Below the pieces are notes generated by a model. That model saw only the letters and a program-made list of their open reading frames with translations. It searched no databases and was not told the DNA's origin. The position numbers were made by a program, and so were the translations under genes. Positions 17,147 through 64,000 of a stretch of 64,000 bases of DNA are shown piece by piece (position 1 is the stretch's first letter; every line of letters begins with the position of its first letter). The DNA comes from Roseateles depolymerans (lineage in GTDB: Bacteria; Pseudomonadota; Gammaproteobacteria; Burkholderiales; Burkholderiaceae_C), in the NCBI RefSeq assembly GCF_003387155.1, contig NZ_QUMT01000001.1, forward strand, positions 1 to 64,000, read 5' to 3'.

Positions 17147-17266
17147 AACACAGCGCACAAGACCCCCACGACCGATTGATTTGCGCCGCAAACAAAGCGA
17201 GGCAGGCCACTACCGGAGGACAGCCGCTCCTTAAAGTACGTGGCGGACCACCGTATCAGAAAGGCG

Positions 17267-17353
17267 CGGCCGGGGGCTTCTTTGCGGAAGTTAAGAAGGG
17301 AATGGCCGGCGCAGCCGGACAGGAATGACATGGAGCAAAGAAGCCCCCGGCCG
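17267..17353. repeat. Large hairpin element A with conserved 49-nt loop
   Basis: Nineteen perfect base pairs join 17267-17285 to 17335-17353. They enclose a 49-nt loop that contains a small CCGGC-GCA-GCCGG hairpin at 17316-17328. The loop is about 84% identical to that of the element at 62972-63074. The arms share only the innermost TTTGC/GCAAA with that copy. The element lies between the convergent ends of the rhodanese gene and creA, and no T-run follows on either strand. The remaining part of 17147-17381 shows no gene. Confidence 0.85.
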
Positions 17354-17381
17354 TGACTTTCGAGCGAAGGCAAAGAAGCAT

Positions 17382-17918
17382 TTACTTCAACGGAATCGGC
17401 GTCCCCCGATCCACCGGCACTGCTGTCACGCTGTTCTGCGGCGACCCTTCGATCACCCGATCCGAATACGTCAGATACACCAGCGTATTGCGCTTCGGAT
17501 CGATCATTCGGACCACTCGAAGCCGCTTGAAGACGAGCGAGCGTCGTTCCGAGAATACTTCTTCCTGCCGCGGCAGCGGCTTCGGAAAACTGATCGGCCC
17601 GACGGCACGACATGCGATCGACGCATCCGACTTGTCTTCGGCCAACCCCAACGCACCCTTGACGCCACCGGTCTTGGCGCGAGACACAAAGCAGGTGACC
17701 CCTTGCACGCCGGGATCGTCATAGGCATCCACCACGATTTTGTGATCGGGCCCGATCAGCTTGAACACCGTGTCCACCTCTCCGATGGCATCGGACTCGG
17801 CAGCGTGGGCGCTGCCGGGCCAGACAACTGCCAGGGCGGCGACGACCAGGCCGGTGGCGGCCATCGTCTGCAGGATTTTGCGCTGGGAAGCGAAAGGGAA
17901 ACGATCAGAACGGGACAT
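17382..17918 (-). CDS. creA: CreA family protein
   Basis: A 178-residue secreted protein of the CreA family. The start at 17918 has AGGAG eight bases upstream. A basic leader ([12 protein letters not shown]), a hydrophobic core and an AHAAE cleavage site indicate export. The mature part has the family features: [51 protein letters not shown] and [15 protein letters not shown], with two conserved Cys that may pair in the periplasm. The biochemical function of CreA is not known. Confidence 0.92.
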
Positions 17919-17985
17919 GCAGGCTCTCCTTGAATACGGCGTTGTAGCACGGCGCATGCCTGCCTCGCGTACGGAGTCTGTGGCC

Positions 17986-18351
17986 TCACCGTGACCGCGG
18001 AGTCGCTCCGCCGTGCACTTGCTGGCTGTCGCGCGGGGCCTCGTCGCGCTGATGCAGCCCGTAGTCTCGCACCACCTCCGCCACTCTCAGCCGATAGTCG
18101 TGAAACACCCCTGCGCGCCCGGCCACCTGCGCGGCCCGATGCTCGTCCAACTGCCGCCAGGCCCGCACCGCGTCCTCATCACGCCAAAACGACAAGGACA
18201 GCATCCGGCGCGAGTCGCTCAGGCTCTGGAAACGTTCGATGCTGATGAACCCATCCATCGTCTCCAGAACCGATCGCAGGTCCGCGGCCCGTTGCAGATA
18301 GTGCTCACGCTGGCCATCGGCCGGCACCACCTCGAAGATCACCGCGATCAT
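17986..18351 (-). CDS. Antibiotic biosynthesis monooxygenase (ABM) domain protein
   Basis: A 121-residue protein with the ABM ferredoxin-like fold: [38 protein letters not shown] and [23 protein letters not shown]. Proteins of this fold include cofactor-free monooxygenases and haem-degrading enzymes. The start overlaps the stop of the P450-like gene by four bases, so translation is coupled. The last 20 residues are hydrophilic and probably disordered. The substrate is unknown; the pairing suggests both act on one small molecule. Confidence 0.82.
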
Positions 18352-19379
18352 GCGACGTCTCCCTGGTCGAGCGTTGGAGACGCCCCCGATTCAAACATCA
18401 CCAGCGCCATATTGGGCAACGCAACTGTGTAATGGCCCGCAGGCAGCGCACGCACCGTCTGCCCAGCCGCCCATTCCAGCGCAGCCTCCGCGGTCGTGAG
18501 GGCCAGGCTTTCGCCGGGGCACCGATGGGGGCCTTCGCCGAAGATCAGAGACCGGTCTGTCAGCGAGACCGCCAAGAGCGTGCCGGCCGCCACCAGGCGC
18601 CCTGACACCTCGGTCGTCCGCTGCGCAAACCGACGCGTCAGCCGCACGGCACCGCCGCCACTGGCGATGTCGCGAAGCCCTTCGCGACCCGGCGCCAACC
18701 CGGTCCTCACCAGATGAAGAAGCCCATGCCCCAACAGCGCCGTCCCGGCTTCATGGCTCTGCCACAGCATCGACAGCCGATGGGCCTGGCCGGTCAGCGC
18801 ATCGGCCCAGCGATAGCCAGCGGTGCCATGCAGCCAGGAATGCTGCAGCGGAGCATCCGGGGCCGTGGCCTCGGCGTCACGCAGGGCCAGCAGCAGCGCC
18901 TCGGTCGCCTGATTCCCGGCTTGCACCGCGCAGGGCGAAGCGTTTTCCGCCAGCGCCGCTGCGACCGCTCGAAGGCGACGCACCAACGCACGCTGCTCAT
19001 CCACCGAGCCCATGTTCATCCCAAGCAGCCCGGCCACGGTCGCAGCAGGCACGGCCCAGACCCAGTGGTCCCAGCCATGCTCCCCCGCCGCCATAGCAGC
19101 CTGCCGCTGCGCCTCGCGCCGGACCGCTTCATCGGGCAGGGATCGCAGCACCTGGGTAAGCAGCGCTTTCTCCCCGGCATGCCGTGCGTCATCCCGTTGC
19201 CGCAACCATCGGACAAACACGTCAGCCAGGGGGCCGCCTGCACGGGCCAGCGTGGCGGGCCGCGGCTGACCGGGCGGGCGCACGCCCAGATCGGGGTGAT
19301 GCAGCAAGGCATGGGGGCAGGGCGTCGTGGGGGGCATGGGTGACAGGTGGGAAGGGAGTGAAACCGGGGACACCGACAT
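18348..19379 (-). CDS. Short, atypical cytochrome P450
   Basis: A 343-residue P450-like protein, about 60 residues shorter than usual. The haem-ligand motif FGEGPHRCPG (280-289, Cys287) is intact and EGLR (233-236) can serve as ExxR. The stretch between VAAGTLLAVSLTDRS and the haem loop is reduced, so the meander region is largely missing. In the I-helix, SHEAGT (208-213) replaces the usual (A/G)Gx(E/D)TT, so the acid-alcohol pair is altered. It may be an unusual monooxygenase or peroxygenase. It is divergent from an ArsR-family gene 43 bp away and coupled to the ABM gene. Confidence 0.78.
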   Translation of the reverse strand: MSVSPVSLPSHLSPMPPTTPCPHALLHHPDLGVRPPGQPRPATLARAGGPLADVFVRWLRQRDDARHAGEKALLTQVLRSLPDEAVRREAQRQAAMAAGEHGWDHWVWAVPAATVAGLLGMNMGSVDEQRALVRRLRAVAAALAENASPCAVQAGNQATEALLLALRDAEATAPDAPLQHSWLHGTAGYRWADALTGQAHRLSMLWQSHEAGTALLGHGLLHLVRTGLAPGREGLRDIASGGGAVRLTRRFAQRTTEVSGRLVAAGTLLAVSLTDRSLIFGEGPHRCPGESLALTTAEAALEWAAGQTVRALPAGHYTVALPNMALVMFESGASPTLDQGDVA

Positions 19380-20945: not shown

Positions 20946-21097
20946 CCCCCAGTCGCTTCGCTCCTGCCCAAAGCTCCCACGCTCCGCCGCCCCCCGCACG
21001 GCCCCCGTGGCCGTGCCCATCAAGCCACACCCGCGGGACTGGCTTTGCCAGACCGCCGGGTGGCGCCCCTCGGGGGCAGGAGCGAAGCGACTGGGGG
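20946..21097. repeat. Large 24-bp-stem palindrome with internal hairpins
   Basis: The arm at 20946-20969 pairs perfectly with 21074-21097 over 24 bp, starting CCCCCAGTCGCTTCGC. The 104-base interior holds two smaller hairpins, GCACGGCC/GGCCGTGC at 20996-21016 and CTGGC-TTT-GCCAG at 21039-21051. It begins right after the DUF72 stop. No T-run follows. The layout resembles the intergenic palindromes common in Burkholderiales, a comparison made from memory. Confidence 0.8.
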
Positions 21098-44958: not shown

Positions 44959-45180
44959 TCAGCCGGGGTGAATGTCAGCCCAGCTCACCGCACCCACGCC
45001 CTCGCCGGTGACGCCAGGCACGACGCCAGCCCATAAAGGACGCGCCCCATCGGCCAGCTCGTAATAGCCGCGCTACAGGGCCACGGCTTGCGCGGAGGAA
45101 TGTGCACGGACGATCAGGTCCAGACTTTCTCCGTCGTCGTTGTCAGCCCGCACGAAGTACACCGGGACTGCCTGGGGAGA
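44959..45180 (-). pseudogene. Decayed small gene of unknown family
   Basis: One minus-strand frame reads through about 70 codons: AVPVYFVRADNDDGESLDLI, VRAHSSAQAVAL, a TAG at 45073-45075, then RGYYELADGARPLWAG and VVPGVTGEGVGAVSWADIHPG with its own stop at 44959. The protein-like composition on both sides of the single TAG, in one frame, indicates a nonsense mutation in a real small gene. No start codon remains: the 5' end abuts the chemoreceptor stop. Family not recognised. Confidence 0.6.
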
Positions 45181-45182
45181 CA

Positions 45183-46724
45183 CTACCGCTCCCCCGTCCT
45201 GAAATGCGCCACCAGCTGCGTCAACTTCCTCGCCTGCTCATTCACCGACTCCGCTGCGGCCGCTGACTCTTCCACCAGCGCCGCATTCTGCTGCGTCATC
45301 TGATCCAGCTGTGCCACCGCGCCATTCACGCTGCCGATGCCCTGGCTCTGTTCCACCGTGCTGGCGCTGATCTCGCTGATGATGTCCGACACCCGCTGCA
45401 CGCTGGCCACGATCTCCTGCATCGTCTCGCCGGCCTCCCGCACCAGCTGAGACCCAGCCTCCACCTTCGACACGCTGTCCCCGATCAGGCTCTTGATCTC
45501 GCGCGCCGCCCCCGCGCTGCGCTGCGCCAGCGCCCGCACCTCGCTGGCCACCACGGCAAATCCCCGACCTTGCTCACCGGCCCGTGCCGCCTCCACGGCC
45601 GCATTCAGTGCCAGGATGTTGGTTTGGAAAGCAATGCTGTCGATCACGCCGATGATGTCATTGATCTTCTTGGCGCTCGCATCGATCGCGCCCATCGTGC
45701 CCACCACCTGTCCGACGACCGCGCCCCCTCGCTGCGCGACTTCCGCAGCACTGCCGGCCAACTGATTCGCCGTCCGCGCACTGTCCGCACTTTGCTGCAC
45801 CGTGCCGGTGAGCTGCGCCAGCGAAGACGCCGCCTGCTGCAGATTCGAGGCCGTCTGCTCGGTGCGATGGCTCAGGTCCGCATTGCCGCTGGCAATTTCC
45901 GCGCTGGCCGTCTGCATGGCTTCGACACTGCCGCGAAAGCCCATCATCATCGTGCGCAGCGAGGCCGTCATCTGCGCCAGGGCCTGCTGCACCTCGCCGA
46001 TTTCATCTTCGCGCACCTGCTGCGTCTGGTCGGACAGATCCCCGTCCCCGATCCGTCCCGCCTGGACCACCAGCTGCTTGAGCGGCGTGGAAATGGTGCG
46101 CACGAAATACGCCGTCGCCACCGCCAGCAGCAGCACGATGACACTCATCACCGCCGCCACGCCCCACACCGTGCGCATGCGCTCCGCGCCGGCGGCTTCC
46201 CGCAGCGCCGTGGCCTTGGCTTGCTGCAGCTTCACAAACGCCTGTTGCGCTTCCAGGTACTGCTCGATGGCCGGCACCACCTTCTGCTTGAGCGCGGCAT
46301 GCGACGCCTCGACCTGCCCGTCGGACTTGAGCTTCATCGCTTCATTGCGCGCCGCAATGTAGGCCTTGCGACGTTCGGCCACGGTTGCCATGGCGGCCTT
46401 GTCGGCATCGTCATCCACCAGCGCTTCGAGCTGCTTCTGCACCTCGGTGATGGTCTCGGTAGTGCGGGCAATGTCCGCCTTCATCGCCTCGGCCACCGCC
46501 ATGTCGTTGGCGGCCAGCCCGCCCTGCACACGGCTGGCATTGGCCTCCGTCAGACCGCGCCATCGCAGCGCCAGCTCGAAGCGTTGCTGCTGCTTCTCCT
46601 GCGTCACCTGCGAGGCCGCCAGCAGCGCCCGCGTGCGCACCGCAGCGCCGGTGGACATCAGCACCGTCATCGTGGCCATCACGATCACGGGAATCCACAG
46701 GCGGGTGGCTATCGACATCTTCAT
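45183..46724 (-). CDS. Methyl-accepting chemotaxis protein (4HB-type sensor)
   Basis: A 513-residue chemoreceptor starting [15 protein letters not shown]. The periplasmic domain (about 30-185) is a four-helix bundle. A second membrane helix near 195-215, HAMP, coiled coil and the conserved tip [37 protein letters not shown] follow. It ends [14 protein letters not shown] without an NWETF tail. The tip is nearly identical to those of the receptors at 23542 and 25285, which makes the three genes likely partners for recombination; a fourth fragment lies at 43592. Confidence 0.93.
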
Positions 46725-50873: not shown

Positions 50874-52616
50874 TCAGACGTGCCGGACCTTGACCCGGGC
50901 ATGTTCATTGATGCCCATGGCACCAAAGAACAGGGCCACCAGGCGGTGGGCGTCGGTGAACTGGACCGCGCGGTTTTCGCTGCGGCGGGCCAGCACCCAG
51001 TTCAGCAGGTCGCCAGCGGCCATGAAGTCCAGGCGGATCAGCTTTGGGCAGGCGATGTTGACCAGCGAGGCGGGGCCCAGCTGATCCGTCATCAGCTTCA
51101 GGGTTTCGCTGATGTCGCCGCTGAGCTGGCCGGACAGCTCCATCTGGGCCGCCGTGCTGAGCGCATCGGTGATGGTCGATTCGAGGAAGCTGATGCCGGT
51201 GTCCATGGCCGGCTGCACCGACGAATGGGGCGACGCGGTCGACAGGCTGTTGCCGCTGACCCGCACATGGGCCTCCGCCTTTTCCCAGGAGGGCGGCGAG
51301 ACTTCATAGGTGACGCAGTAGTCGATGGCAACTTCGTCGAACTGGTCCGGACGGTTGGCCAGACGCAGCGCCTCCAGGCGCACCATCCAGTAGACCGGGT
51401 CGGCATCACGCGCGCCGACCGGGGCCTGGTCCTTGAGGACCTGGAAGAAGTGGTCGCCGGCCAGCCAGCGCAGGTCCAGCGCCTGCGGGGCCCAGGCGCG
51501 GAAGACTTCCCGCAGGCGGGCACAGGCTTCCGGATCGATCTGGCGCAGGTTCTGGAAGTCCAGCACCCAGGGCAGGGGCAGGTTCTCGCAGCGGCTGCGC
51601 ATCTGCAGCACGCCGTCCACGTCCAGATATTCCGGGCAGGACCAGGCCACCGTGGTGCTGTTGCCGCGCGGGGCGCGTTCCTGCTGCACCGCTTCGGCCA
51701 CCAGCTTGGGCAGCGAGAACCACTGCGGCGACGACAGGCCGAACTGCTGGGCGTAGTCGTTGGCCAGATTTTCGAACTTGGCTTGCTGGCCGGTGGCGCG
51801 GTAGAGGTCGAACAGCACCAGCCAGGTGTCGGCATGGGTGTGGCGAGGGCCGCCTTCACGGGTCAGGTCGGCCAGGCTGCGTTCGCAGTGTTCGTAGTCG
51901 CCGTTGGCGAAGGCAATGACGGCTTCGTCCAGTTCGGCGTCGTGCACCACCTCGTTGACTTCCACATCGCTCGGGTCGGCGACCGGGAAGGTCAGGGTCG
52001 GGATGGCGGCCTTGAGTTCGGGGATGGGCGCTGCGGCACCGGTGCTCTGCGGCGACAGGCCCGAGCCCATGTTGGCGGCCGACGGCGCGGGGGACAGGTC
52101 CAGCCGCTCCACGGTGGCGGGCGGCGGGGCGAAGGCCGGGGCACGGGCGCCGATGTTGTCAGCGGGCTGGGTGGGATTGAAATTGACCGGCCGGGTGCTG
52201 GTTTCAAAGAAAGCCGGCGGATGCTGGCCCTGCACCTGGGTGGGCGCGAAGCTCTCGCCCACCATCTGCTGCTCGATCTGGTCGATCTTGGACTTGATGC
52301 TGGTCTGGCTGCCGTTGATCTCGCTGATGCGGCCCAGTTCGTCGATGCCGGAGGTGGCATGACCGCCCAGCGCCGCCAGTTGCTCGGGGGTCAGGCCTTC
52401 CCGGCGGATGCGGCGCAGCATGTCCAGCTCGCGCTTGCGGACGAAGTCGTTGCGCCGCTTGCGCTCGACCATGGCGCGCAGCTCGGCCTTGGCCGCGTCC
52501 GCTTCCGGGTCGTCCTGGCGCGAGTTGATTTCCGCCCAGTCCGTCGTCGGGTTGGCGACGAACCGAGCCACCTTGCGGAAGAAGCTCTCGCCGTCTTTGG
52601 TGGTGGAGTCGGTCAT
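50874..52616 (-). CDS. STAS-like repeat protein of unknown function
   Basis: A 580-residue soluble protein. Residues 1-100 are charged and helical (AKAELRAMVERKRRNDFVRK). Residues 100-215 are a Pro/Ala/Ser-rich linker. Residues 215-320 look TPR-like (ELDEAVIAFANGDYEHCERSL, TWLVLFDLYRATGQQAKFENL). Two segments then resemble STAS domains: about 325-405 (PEYLDVDGVLQMRSRC, WVLDFQNLRQIDPEACARL) and about 500-580 (PKLIRLDFMAAGDLLNWVL, VQFTDAHRLVALFFGAMGI). STAS domains usually act as anti-sigma-factor antagonists, but no partner gene is adjacent. There is no signal peptide. Confidence 0.65.
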   Translation of the reverse strand: MTDSTTKDGESFFRKVARFVANPTTDWAEINSRQDDPEADAAKAELRAMVERKRRNDFVRKRELDMLRRIRREGLTPEQLAALGGHATSGIDELGRISEINGSQTSIKSKIDQIEQQMVGESFAPTQVQGQHPPAFFETSTRPVNFNPTQPADNIGARAPAFAPPPATVERLDLSPAPSAANMGSGLSPQSTGAAAPIPELKAAIPTLTFPVADPSDVEVNEVVHDAELDEAVIAFANGDYEHCERSLADLTREGGPRHTHADTWLVLFDLYRATGQQAKFENLANDYAQQFGLSSPQWFSLPKLVAEAVQQERAPRGNSTTVAWSCPEYLDVDGVLQMRSRCENLPLPWVLDFQNLRQIDPEACARLREVFRAWAPQALDLRWLAGDHFFQVLKDQAPVGARDADPVYWMVRLEALRLANRPDQFDEVAIDYCVTYEVSPPSWEKAEAHVRVSGNSLSTASPHSSVQPAMDTGISFLESTITDALSTAAQMELSGQLSGDISETLKLMTDQLGPASLVNIACPKLIRLDFMAAGDLLNWVLARRSENRAVQFTDAHRLVALFFGAMGINEHARVKVRHV

Positions 52617-52675
52617 GCTTTGGTGGCTTCTCTCTGGACAGTTCCGGACATCGATGCGGGTCAGGTCAGCAGACC

Positions 52676-53329
52676 TCAGTCCCCAAACATCTTCTGCTTG
52701 AGTTCACGGCGTTGCTGAGCTTCCAGCGACAGGGTGGCGGTCGGGCGGGCGATCAGCCGGCCCAGGCCGATGGGTTCACCGGTTTCGTCGCAGTAACCAT
52801 ATTCGCCGCTGTCCAGACGGGTCAGCGACTGCATGATCTTCTTCAGCAGCTTGCGCTCGCGGTCGCGGGTGCGCAGTTCCAGGGCGTGTTCTTCCTCGAT
52901 GGTGGCACGGTCGGCCGGATCGGGGACGATGGAGGTGTCTTCACGCAGGTGCTCGGTGGTTTCACCGGCGTTGGACAGGATGTCTTCCTTGAGCTGGGTC
53001 AGCTTGGCGCGGAAGAACTCCACCTGCTTGTCGTTCATGTATTCGCTGTCCGGCATGGCCAGCACTTCAGCGTCAGTCAGTTCAGCACCGGGCTTGGATT
53101 TCCAGGCATTGGCGAGTTTGGGGTCGGCTTTCACGGCGGTGCGGGTGTTCTGATTCAGGGTTGAAGAGGCAGTCGCGCGCTGGACGGGAGCGTCCAGCGT
53201 GGCGACCGAACTGTCAGGAGCGTCCGCCTCGGGGGCGTCAGCGCTACTTGCGGCCTTGGCCGCCACAGGCTTGGCAACCTTGGCGCCTGCCTTCGGTGCA
53301 CTGGTCTTGGAGGCCGGGGTCTTGCTCAC
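52676..53329 (-). CDS. dksA: RNA polymerase-binding transcription factor DksA (Cys-poor type)
   Basis: A 217-residue DksA with a GTG start; AGGAG lies six bases upstream. The first 65 residues are a low-complexity Ala/Lys extension absent from E. coli DksA. The coiled-coil tip holds the DxxDxA motif, DPADRA at 137-142. The zinc-finger Cys are replaced: C180xxT183 and S201xxA204 stand where CxxC and CxxC are expected. The globular domain is probably zinc-free. DksA works with ppGpp at the secondary channel of RNA polymerase to repress rRNA and activate amino-acid genes. Confidence 0.93.
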   Translation of the reverse strand: MSKTPASKTSAPKAGAKVAKPVAAKAASSADAPEADAPDSSVATLDAPVQRATASSTLNQNTRTAVKADPKLANAWKSKPGAELTDAEVLAMPDSEYMNDKQVEFFRAKLTQLKEDILSNAGETTEHLREDTSIVPDPADRATIEEEHALELRTRDRERKLLKKIMQSLTRLDSGEYGYCDETGEPIGLGRLIARPTATLSLEAQQRRELKQKMFGD

Positions 53330-62904: not shown

Positions 62905-62971
62905 GAGCAGCGTGGGTGAGCCCTCGCTGATCCGCAACGTCCGATTGGACTGGTGGAAGTCCTGGGTGTGA

Positions 62972-63074
62972 GAAGACGGGGAGGCGGGGTCTGTTTGCGG
63001 AGGTTAAGGAAGGAATGGCCGGCGAAGCCGGACAGGAGGGACACGTAGCAAACAGACCCCGCCTCCCCGTCTTC
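62972..63074. repeat. Large hairpin element B with conserved 49-nt loop
   Basis: Twenty-seven perfect base pairs join 62972-62998 to 63048-63074 around a 49-nt loop with an internal CCGGC-GAA-GCCGG hairpin (63019-63031). The loop differs from that of the element at 17267-17353 at about eight positions. The arms beyond TTTGC are unrelated to that copy. It also lies between convergent gene ends (the YgjP-type and MBL-fold genes). No T-run follows. Confidence 0.87.
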
Positions 63075-63337
63075 GATGGGCAGTGCACCCCCCCCCCACG
63101 CCCCCGGTATTTACCCTTGCCAGGAGCCCAAGATTGCCCGCCCCCCGGCCCCTCTGCCGGGTTTTCCCCCTTAGGGGGGGCTTGTCCCCCATTCCTGGTG
63201 GGATGCACACTCGCCAACGCTGTCATCACCGCATCTGAGCACGATTGGAGCCTGCTCCGTGCGGCGCCACGATTTCCGCAGCCTGCGCTGTGTTCGGTCG
63301 ATCCGCGCTGACGTTAATTGATGCATACAAGGCTCAG

Positions 63338-63366
63338 CGCCGCCGCCCCCGGAAGGGGCGGCGGCG
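63338..63366 (-). terminator. Strong hairpin after the MBL-fold gene
   Basis: CGCCGCCGCCCC (63338-63349) pairs with GGGGCGGCGGCG (63355-63366), a perfect 12-bp stem with a five-base loop, starting eight bases past the MBL-fold stop on the minus strand. No T-run follows, so it may end transcripts weakly or protect the 3' end. Confidence 0.5.
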
Positions 63367-63373
63367 ACTGGTT

Positions 63374-64000
63374 TCAAGCCGAGAACCGATACACCCCGTC
63401 ATCACCCAGATGGCGCCGCAACTGTCCTCCCAACCAGAGATGGTTCAGGTGGGCCACCGCTTCCCCCATGGCAAATGTGGTCTGGTGTAAATCCAGCGGC
63501 CGCCGGAACATCATCGGCAGCAGTTCCGCCGCGTGACTGGGCTTGGCCGTACAGGCGGCCAGCACCTCCGCCAGCCGCTCCGCATGATGCTGCTGCAACT
63601 GATCGATCCGCGCATGCAGCCCCTTGAATGGTTTGCCATGCGCCGGCAGCACCAGCGTGTCTTCCGGCAGCGGCAACAGCCGCGCCAATGAATCCAGATA
63701 CTGTCGCAGCGGATCCGCTTCCGGCTCCACGTCCACCACCGACACGTTCGTGGAAATTCGCGGCAACACCATATCGCCGGCGATCATCACCCCCAGCGAC
63801 TCCGACCACAGACTCATGTGCTCCGGCGCATGCCCATGGCCCACCAGACAGGTCCACGCGTGGTCGCCGATTTTGAGCTCCATCCCGTCCATCAAGCGCC
63901 GGAACGCAGGCGGCACGGCCGGCACCATGTTCGGGTAATAACTGGCCCGCCCGCGGATTTTCTCCAGCGACGCCGGATCCGACAGCCCGTGGCTTCCGAA
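63374..64000 (-). CDS. MBL-fold metallo-hydrolase, 5' end beyond the window
   Basis: The visible 208 residues are the C-terminal part of an MBL-fold enzyme; the frame stays open to the edge, so the HxHxDH motif lies outside. Seen are SHGLSDPASLEKIRGRASYY, TCLVGHGHAPEHMSLWSE (zinc His), VMIAGDMVLPRIS (bridging Asp) and LVLPAHGKPFKG (final His). A C-terminal winged-helix-like tail (LLPMMFRRPLDLHQTTFAMG, EAVAHLNHLWLGGQL) fits the subfamily with a beta-lactamase-associated winged helix. Substrate unknown. Confidence 0.88.
   Translation of the reverse strand, partial: FGSHGLSDPASLEKIRGRASYYPNMVPAVPPAFRRLMDGMELKIGDHAWTCLVGHGHAPEHMSLWSESLGVMIAGDMVLPRISTNVSVVDVEPEADPLRQYLDSLARLLPLPEDTLVLPAHGKPFKGLHARIDQLQQHHAERLAEVLAACTAKPSHAAELLPMMFRRPLDLHQTTFAMGEAVAHLNHLWLGGQLRRHLGDDGVYRFSA

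Follow-up and report, generated by a model that had tools for sequence, protein, structure and literature searches.

A dispersed family of hairpin elements with paired but nearly free arms in Roseateles and a one-sided G-to-C skew beside its copies in one clade

Two long hairpins, copy A and copy B, lie between convergent gene ends in the window, by which the whole analysed stretch of 64,000 nucleotides of Roseateles depolymerans DNA is meant (Table 1). An earlier note on this DNA had described both as perfectly self-complementary around related loops, and this was borne out: the arms pair perfectly over 19 bp in copy A and 27 bp in copy B, and the 49-nt loops differ at 8 positions, which corresponds to an agreement of 41/49. 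Its statement that the arms have no common sequence apart from an inner TTTGC/GCAAA was overstated, as the 5' arms (19 nt) of the two copies agree at 11 positions. When folding was compared with dinucleotide shuffles, 0 of 200 were as stable, whichever strand of A or B was taken (z -7.3 to -10.8). Copy B is almost identical in three species and much of its intergenic flank is unalignable; copy A has diverged through paired substitutions. Near copy B, about 200 bp of non-coding DNA (63170-63374) adjoining a minus-strand gene at 63374 are strongly conserved in four species, in contrast to the hard-to-align neighbouring intergenic DNA in those four species.

Table 1. Positions of copies A and B, their parts and the adjoining skewed stretches in the window
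Feature	Positions	Strand	Description or basis
Copy A, perfect arms	17267-17285/17335-17353	+	19 bp
Copy A, stem including mismatches	17259-17285/17335-17361	+	27 nt, 93% complementary
Copy A, entire hairpin element	17259..17361	+	5' arm 17259-17285, core 17286-17334 (49 nt), 3' arm 17335-17361
Copy A, covariance-model match	17258-17362
Copy A, conserved purine-rich internal loop, 5' strand, ggaagttaagaagggaatgg	17286..17305	+	alignments
Copy A, P2 hairpin, CCGGC gca GCCGG	17306..17318	+	folding, alignment
Copy A, conserved internal loop, 3' strand, acaggaatgacatgga	17319..17334	+	alignments
Copy A, 3' side, negative GC skew	17362..19361	+	skew profile; comparison of right-hand gene with and without element
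Copy B, entire hairpin element	62971..63075	+	folding, covariance model
Copy B, perfect arms	62972-62998 and 63048-63074	+	27 bp; core 62999-63047
Copy B, P2 hairpin, CCGGC gaa GCCGG	63019..63031	+	folding, alignment
Copy B, 3' side, negative GC skew	63076..64000	+	skew profile; comparison with and without element

Searches with a loop-core pattern, in which up to 3 mismatches were allowed, detected 26 places in the Roseateles genome G000, while the reversed control pattern detected none. A covariance model gave 57 rows in the same genome, 4 of which are the opposite strand of the same place, and a separate scan recovered 53 elements, in which the core measures 49 nt (27 elements) or 41-43 nt (21 elements) or is long (5 elements). 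The fetched stretches of four relatives contained 44, 36, 22 and 10 elements. As the earlier note had anticipated, searching the host and its relatives with the covariance model brought up many more copies with paired but different arms. Matches were obtained in 19 of the 60 genomes searched (G000 counted), among them 15 of the 16 Roseateles genomes, and within this genus the copy number ranges from 0 to about 50. By pattern scan the carriers comprise at least Roseateles, Mitsuaria, Paucibacter, Rubrivivax, Aquabacterium, Ideonella, Rhodocyclales, Pseudoxanthomonas and Ca. Nitricoxidireducens; among the pattern matches listed, members have at least 19 of 25 arm pairs and every other match at most 16. 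Copies are also present in records of a cultured strain, Roseateles terrae CECT 7247. A class-wide draw, with only 10 candidates scored per genome, gave matches in 4 of 369 genomes, G000 again counted, and a plasmid collection searched with a 54-nt core (E 1e-5) gave none. Hairpins A and B are best described as belonging to a family of structured hairpin elements that is dispersed and non-autonomous. The three scans that depend on the core ends partly build in the conservation of these ends and miss copies with other ends, such as copy B in G008 and G001 (found by a core-blind scan) and the G011 copy C12:99027 (found as a model match). A literature search, mostly at the level of search results, found nothing describing the hairpin family or a one-sided G-to-C tract at hairpins.

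Each element folds into a rod, in which a stem of 26-28 bp with few constraints on its sequence is followed by an internal loop that is conserved and purine-rich (consensus GGAAGT..AAGRAGGR / GGACATGRA) and by a variable second hairpin, P2. The parts that are fixed across taxa flank P2, with GGAAGT or GTAAGT and AAGGAGGA-like purines on the 5' side and a GGGGGACATGRA-like strand on the 3' side, and P2 between them varies in sequence and length. Ten of 165 copies are about 60-70 nt longer through an insert between GGAC and ATGGA, and one such copy folds with two additional hairpins (P3 and P4) in its insert. In copies of the R. aquatilis type GGAACT occurs together with GAGATGG, elsewhere GGAAGT with GACATGG (seen, not counted), and this co-change suggests a putative short extra helix. 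The flanks are weakly conserved in G000, G008 and G011, with a GCAGTCCTCGGTG-like sequence upstream and GGCGC, followed in some copies by AGTCAAAGAA, downstream; these bases are possibly the true element ends.

For the analysis of pairing, 24 of the 26 core matches (two copies with longer loops were set aside) were aligned over 105 columns. In the stem 97.9% of the cells were paired, in stem and P2 together 98.2%, and both sides had changed in 25 of these 33 pairs. Such pairing was reached by 0 of 500 shuffles and dropped to 39-54% when the partner was slid by 1-3 columns. Since the 24 rows were picked by loop sequence alone, the pairing is not a selection effect. Their 5' arms fall into families, with a mean identity of 0.60 (range 0.29-1.0). 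A cross-taxon alignment admitted only rows with 20 or more of the 25 arm pairs (34 rows), which inflates the percentage paired, and here 83 of 500 shuffles came up to the measure of double-changed pairs.

The remaining stem mismatches are polar. On the core strand of the 24 copies 23 G.T and 0 A.C mismatches were counted; in 169 copies, in rows picked on Watson-Crick pairs only, 116 G.T stood against 5 A.C distinct contexts, and 165 copies gave 103 and 5. Counted over all 28 stem positions of the 169 copies, the numbers were 216 G.T and 26 A.C, most A.C lying at the outer end. Random decay, or a correction of the arms that is blind to the strand, would produce G.T and A.C alike, and the excess of G.T therefore indicates that it is the fold of the core strand that counts. 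Judged from this polarity, the fold of the core strand (the + strand here), be it as RNA or as single-stranded DNA, is under apparent selection. The proposal that pairing was kept while the sequence changed, as in a structured RNA, stands on the double-changed pairs, the high proportion of paired cells and the one-strand wobble; this combination of covariation and one-strand wobble pairs is one expected of a functional structured RNA.

Orthologous sites were anchored by flanking DNA, which yielded 109 copy pairs at the same place in two genomes. Copies at G000 element sites account for at least 31 of 44 elements in G008, 16 of 22 in G001, 7 of 36 in G011 and 10 of 10 in G012, all of them lower bounds on the fetched stretches; the 36 elements of G011 derive from 52 model rows, some of which are the opposite strand of one place. 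At 32 sites shared by G000 and G008 the identity was 0.90 for the elements and 0.50 and 0.61 for the flanks, compared with 0.74 and 0.37 and 0.41, respectively, in unrelated-pair controls. In another comparison, of 32 orthologous pairs, the stems contained 43 double transversions and 30 double transitions, and single changes led to G.U in 33 cases, to A.C in 3 and to other mismatches in 14; 18 paired indels, 3 double changes with a non-Watson-Crick pair and 1 other change were left out of this tally.

The predominance of double transversions and the scarcity of mismatch intermediates would also be expected if the elements were neutral relics with a functionless fold, in which nothing but template switching of DNA from arm to arm maintains perfect pairing. 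Template switching is described for RNA hairpins in PMC8794818, and the simultaneous paired changes and the loop inversion treated there recur in our family, the latter as a core inversion at one site (see below). However, the hairpins treated there are microRNA and rRNA genes, whereas the present family is a bacterial repeat that is dispersed and has wobble polarity. Copying from arm to arm gives no cause for G.T on one strand without A.C (116 vs 5), the non-paired internal loop is conserved across genera, and the elements are more alike than their flanks, so that we regard the purely neutral reading as highly unlikely. As template switching explains the paired transversions and the core inversion but not the wobble polarity, selection and switching are both likely at work.

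Next to the arms, the cores have a history of their own. The class of the loop module, or core, differs in 32 of the 109 orthologous pairs and agrees in 77, where 58 agreeing pairs are expected at random, indicating inheritance of cores in part and exchange in part. Clear homology of the arms persists in 12 of the 32 core-discordant pairs; for example, the element at L055 in G000 has a 42-nt core and its counterparts in G001 (L322) and G008 (L298) have a 49-nt core, with 27-28 of 28 arm positions in agreement. One clear inverted core was found (G008 L295 vs G000 L029), with arms identical except for one base, and G001 and G012 share the orientation of G000 at this site. It is the only one of 16 listed inverted sites that keeps its arms, the rest belonging to divergent pairs or having different arms.

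These observations bear on two ideas of the earlier note. Arms remade at each move are not supported, as the arms at shared sites descend through paired point changes. Insertion into the loops of existing palindromes is unsupported as worded: a core-blind scan detected no comparable hairpin at the places of A and B in 12 element-free genomes, and the constant stem length counts against it as well. What survives of it is a related process, namely the exchange of core class in 32 of 109 pairs and the one core inversion. The stepwise divergence of arms at shared sites implies that arms are neither captured nor remade, and that cores move or are converted within them. A look-up of empty sites yielded two G011 copies in gaps that have no family member in the window; both gaps are too diverged for a readout of target duplication, and one contains another hairpin. 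This is a different hairpin repeat (20946-21097), with 24-bp perfect arms and a 104-nt spacer, in a gap where G011 has a family member.

Genomic placement was assessed for 155 elements of five genomes with both neighbours called. With the element strand taken as +, 59 lie in ++ gaps, 44 in --, 42 in convergent and 10 in divergent gaps; for 99 element-free gaps the numbers are 19, 43, 11 and 26, respectively. Relative to these gaps, elements are moderately enriched between convergent genes and avoid the space between divergent ones. The position between convergent gene ends, which the earlier note had stressed, is thus correct for A and B but applies to only 42 of 155 copies in the family. A bidirectional transcription terminator at convergent gene ends would account for the enrichment (42/155 vs 11/99) and for the avoidance of divergent gaps (10/155 vs 26/99). 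Against this, 103 of the 155 copies lie between same-direction genes, and conservation sits in the loop, which a terminator does not need. Flank logos of 169 elements revealed no T run next to the stem, whichever strand was read, the adjoining positions being G/C-rich on both sides. With no T runs and most copies outside convergent gaps, we dismiss the terminator as very improbable. Among 14 close element pairs, 7 are in tandem and 7 inverted, all of the latter with their 5' ends facing; the close inverted pairs sit at L099, L100, L104, L321, L345, L350 and L386. A recurrent neighbour gene was rejected as a partner, as neighbours clustered only as orthologous loci and ABC-ATPase-like proteins, in calls prone to antisense frames.

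The family shares with REP/REPIN and GTAG/CGTC repeats that it is dispersed, intergenic, hairpin-forming and present in many copies, that it forms dimers and that it is unevenly distributed between lineages. According to PMC3733652, the stem of such palindromic repeats measures 5-13 bp (GTAG) or 8-9 bp (CGTC), their loop spans 2-20 bp and they carry a GTAG or CGTC tag; unlike these, the elements described here have a nearly free stem of 26-28 bp and are conserved in the internal loop. The flank logos of the 169 elements contained neither a GTAG nor a CGTC tag at the hairpin foot. A REP with its RAYT was rejected on stem length, tag and RAYT presence alike. One RAYT-like gene, with an NCBIfam score of 79.5 at a cut-off of 80, was found; in five species (L391, L393, L394, L395, L396) it has a AATTGGGGACAGA-type sequence before it and a TCTGTCCCCATTT- or CCCATTT-type sequence after it.

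A mobile hairpin of the REP/IS200 kind, with a + strand that folds as single-stranded DNA and a Y1 transposase that mobilises it in trans, would explain the G.T polarity from folded DNA. The dispersed intergenic copies, the tandem and inverted pairs and the range from 0 to about 50 copies within one genus speak for such mobility, as does the RAYT-like gene, whose neighbour is a copy at a single orthologous site shared by G000, G008 and G011. However, this gene has its own ends (AATTGGGGACAGA type) and the copy is missing beside it in G012 and G001, G026 carries 15 elements without any Y1 match, and the majority of copies lie at old shared sites. We consider this possibility unlikely.

Structured noncoding RNA motifs of unknown function resemble the elements in their covarying helices around conserved unpaired bases, one-strand wobble and optional helices; in contrast to them, tens of copies per genome are found here, with no tie to one gene. 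Rfam gave only 5S rRNA matches in the window, and for seven element loci nothing at or above the gathering score, the microRNA-hairpin matches lying far below gathering scores. Retron msr-msd RNA likewise has a long sequence-variable stem with conserved structure, and a retron-type RT (PADLOC RT_other/RT_outgroup) is present in 14 of the 16 Roseateles genomes searched. In G000 it is encoded at C1:288915-290066 (L408 838-2361), with the nearest model match of an element about 6 kb away. A retron ncRNA was rejected, as the RT is absent from 9 of 23 genomes searched, all nine of which have element matches. A CsrA sponge was discarded as well: PF02599 had no match in 7 Roseateles genomes, G026, G017 and G166, and was present in G071 and G333. 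As partner proteins, RAYT, retron-type RT and CsrA each fail on their distribution.

In one Roseateles clade the 2-2.5 kb of DNA 3' of the element are depleted of G and enriched in C when read on the element strand. On the 3' side of copy A the GC skew is -0.11 in the first kb and -0.06 in the second, compared with -0.01 and -0.02 on the 5' side; for copy B it is -0.15 up to the window end, compared with +0.05 on the 5' side. In 20 of the 53 G000 elements, picked well apart and with 10-kb flanks, the mean 3' skew was -0.14 in the adjoining DNA, -0.10 at 1.5-2 kb, -0.02 at 2.5-3 kb and about 0 beyond, upstream bins ranged from -0.02 to 0.04, and the first 2 kb on the 3' side were negative in 20 of 20. 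Over five genomes the 3' skew was lower than the 5' skew in 155 of 163 usable elements and at 88 of 92 independent sites. In the 504 kb of G000 sampled around elements, the nine strongest 1.5-kb skew tracts all lie 3' of an element; of 38 tracts above 0.12, 19 lie 3' of an element and 19 do not, one of them on the wrong side of an element.

The bias extends into coding sequence. In genes at 0.2-2 kb from the element on its 3' side, third codon positions have G 0.33 and C 0.54 where the gene runs along the element (0.43 and 0.44 at 4-9 kb), and G 0.33 and C 0.50 where it runs against it (0.45 and 0.42 at 4-9 kb). A at third positions is 0.03 higher in genes against the element, and the same was observed on the 5' side. 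Gene sense was rejected as the cause, as the third-position shift from G to C occurs in both gene senses, and so was replication-strand bias, as the skew is on one side only and is gone within 3 kb.

Genomes with and without an element at the same place were then compared, presence and absence at the places of A and B being confirmed by the core-blind scan. The gene to the right of copy B has a third-position coding skew of 0.44 in G000, 0.36 in G001 and 0.52 in G008, all with the element, compared with -0.01 to 0.08 in 11 genomes without it and 0.22 in G012, which likewise lacks it. For the gene to the right of copy A the values are 0.10, 0.13 and 0.29 with the element and -0.21 to -0.03 in 12 genomes without. 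The gene to the left of copy A differs between clades, G012 without the element (0.05) lying inside the range of the carriers (0.03-0.18). At nine further sites the difference between skew with and without the element was negative in 9 of 9 (-0.03 to -0.18); one of them, L449, was recounted by hand with the G011 copy and gave 0.006 (n 4) vs 0.160 (n 1), in the same direction. Two G011 sites showed a shift in the same direction, with one comparison each. As carriers share ancestry, sites rather than genomes are the independent events. At eight of the further sites the outgroup G015 was found, with a mean skew of about 0, and element-free clade members are often intermediate, some being skewed (L440 -0.13, L450 -0.11), for which, as for G012 at B, past presence of an element or another cause is needed.

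These element-free but skewed clade members would be expected if the skew were not caused by the element and elements persisted where the downstream DNA is C-rich, for instance where C-rich, G-poor RNA favours Rho-dependent termination. In the first 100 bases on the 3' side A exceeds T, as it does at a Rho-loading site, where an excess of A over T is expected. However, the near-zero mean of the outgroup, the low values at the places of A and B in 12 element-free genomes (except G012 at B) and a bias that spans 2 kb of genes in either sense, at third positions, argue against C-rich DNA that was there beforehand, which we find rather doubtful. The pattern with and without the element fits a presumed derived effect with some losses better than insertion into ready-made C-rich DNA, and from these sequence comparisons we infer that the element may be the cause of the tract.

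The tract is largely restricted to the clade. It was not seen at 15 elements of other Roseateles (0.002 upstream, 0.007 downstream), and at 43 elements in other taxa it was weak or absent, the largest group (25) having -0.011 downstream vs 0.007 upstream. The tract is thus not an automatic product of the fold, and a clade-specific factor is needed. The retron-type RT was rejected as this factor, as it also occurs in genomes whose elements have no tract. At the site with the clear inverted core no switch of the tract to the other side was visible.

With a little more confidence than doubt, we favour an explanation that unites a selected one-strand fold, inherited arms, exchanged cores and an element-driven G-to-C mark on the 3' side in one clade. 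The + strand would act as a folded single strand, most simply RNA, recognised through its internal loop by a putative factor, with the arms serving as a stiff stem. Perfect pairing would be held by selection on the fold, probably aided by template-switch copying from arm to arm, and copies would swap cores by recombining with one another. In the skewed clade, the active element would repeatedly expose or resynthesise the adjoining 3' DNA, and this strand-specific, error-prone activity would leave the G-to-C mark. G-to-C changes arise from error-prone polymerases or oxidised guanine. More tentatively, and in our estimation rather less probable than its opposite, the element could itself be a polar mutagen: the folded strand would start a recurrent strand-specific process, such as error-prone resynthesis or a + strand that stays single-stranded for long, by which G is turned into C over about 2-2.5 kb of chromosome on the 3' side, genes included, and the same process would supply the paired C-G/G-C changes in the stem.

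The tract is the part of the finding that a specialist would not expect. Through it, a substitution bias that affects ordinary genes over a whole region is linked to a small repeat; if the relation is causal, a 105-nt element has a part in shaping the GC skew and codon usage of these genomes, and bacteria have a directional DNA process still to be discovered. Independently of this, a stem that is free in sequence but must pair, present in tens of dispersed copies, is a clean natural experiment on the evolution of long perfect hairpins.

Skew was also observed apart from the 3' sides of known copies. The gene to the left of the copy B place has a third-position skew of 0.44 in G011 (L178 region), which is without copy B, perhaps owing to another element nearby. 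In the window, three 1.5-kb stretches without a family member in place are skewed, at 45150-46650 (-0.18), 200-1700 (-0.16) and 51750-53250 (+0.12).
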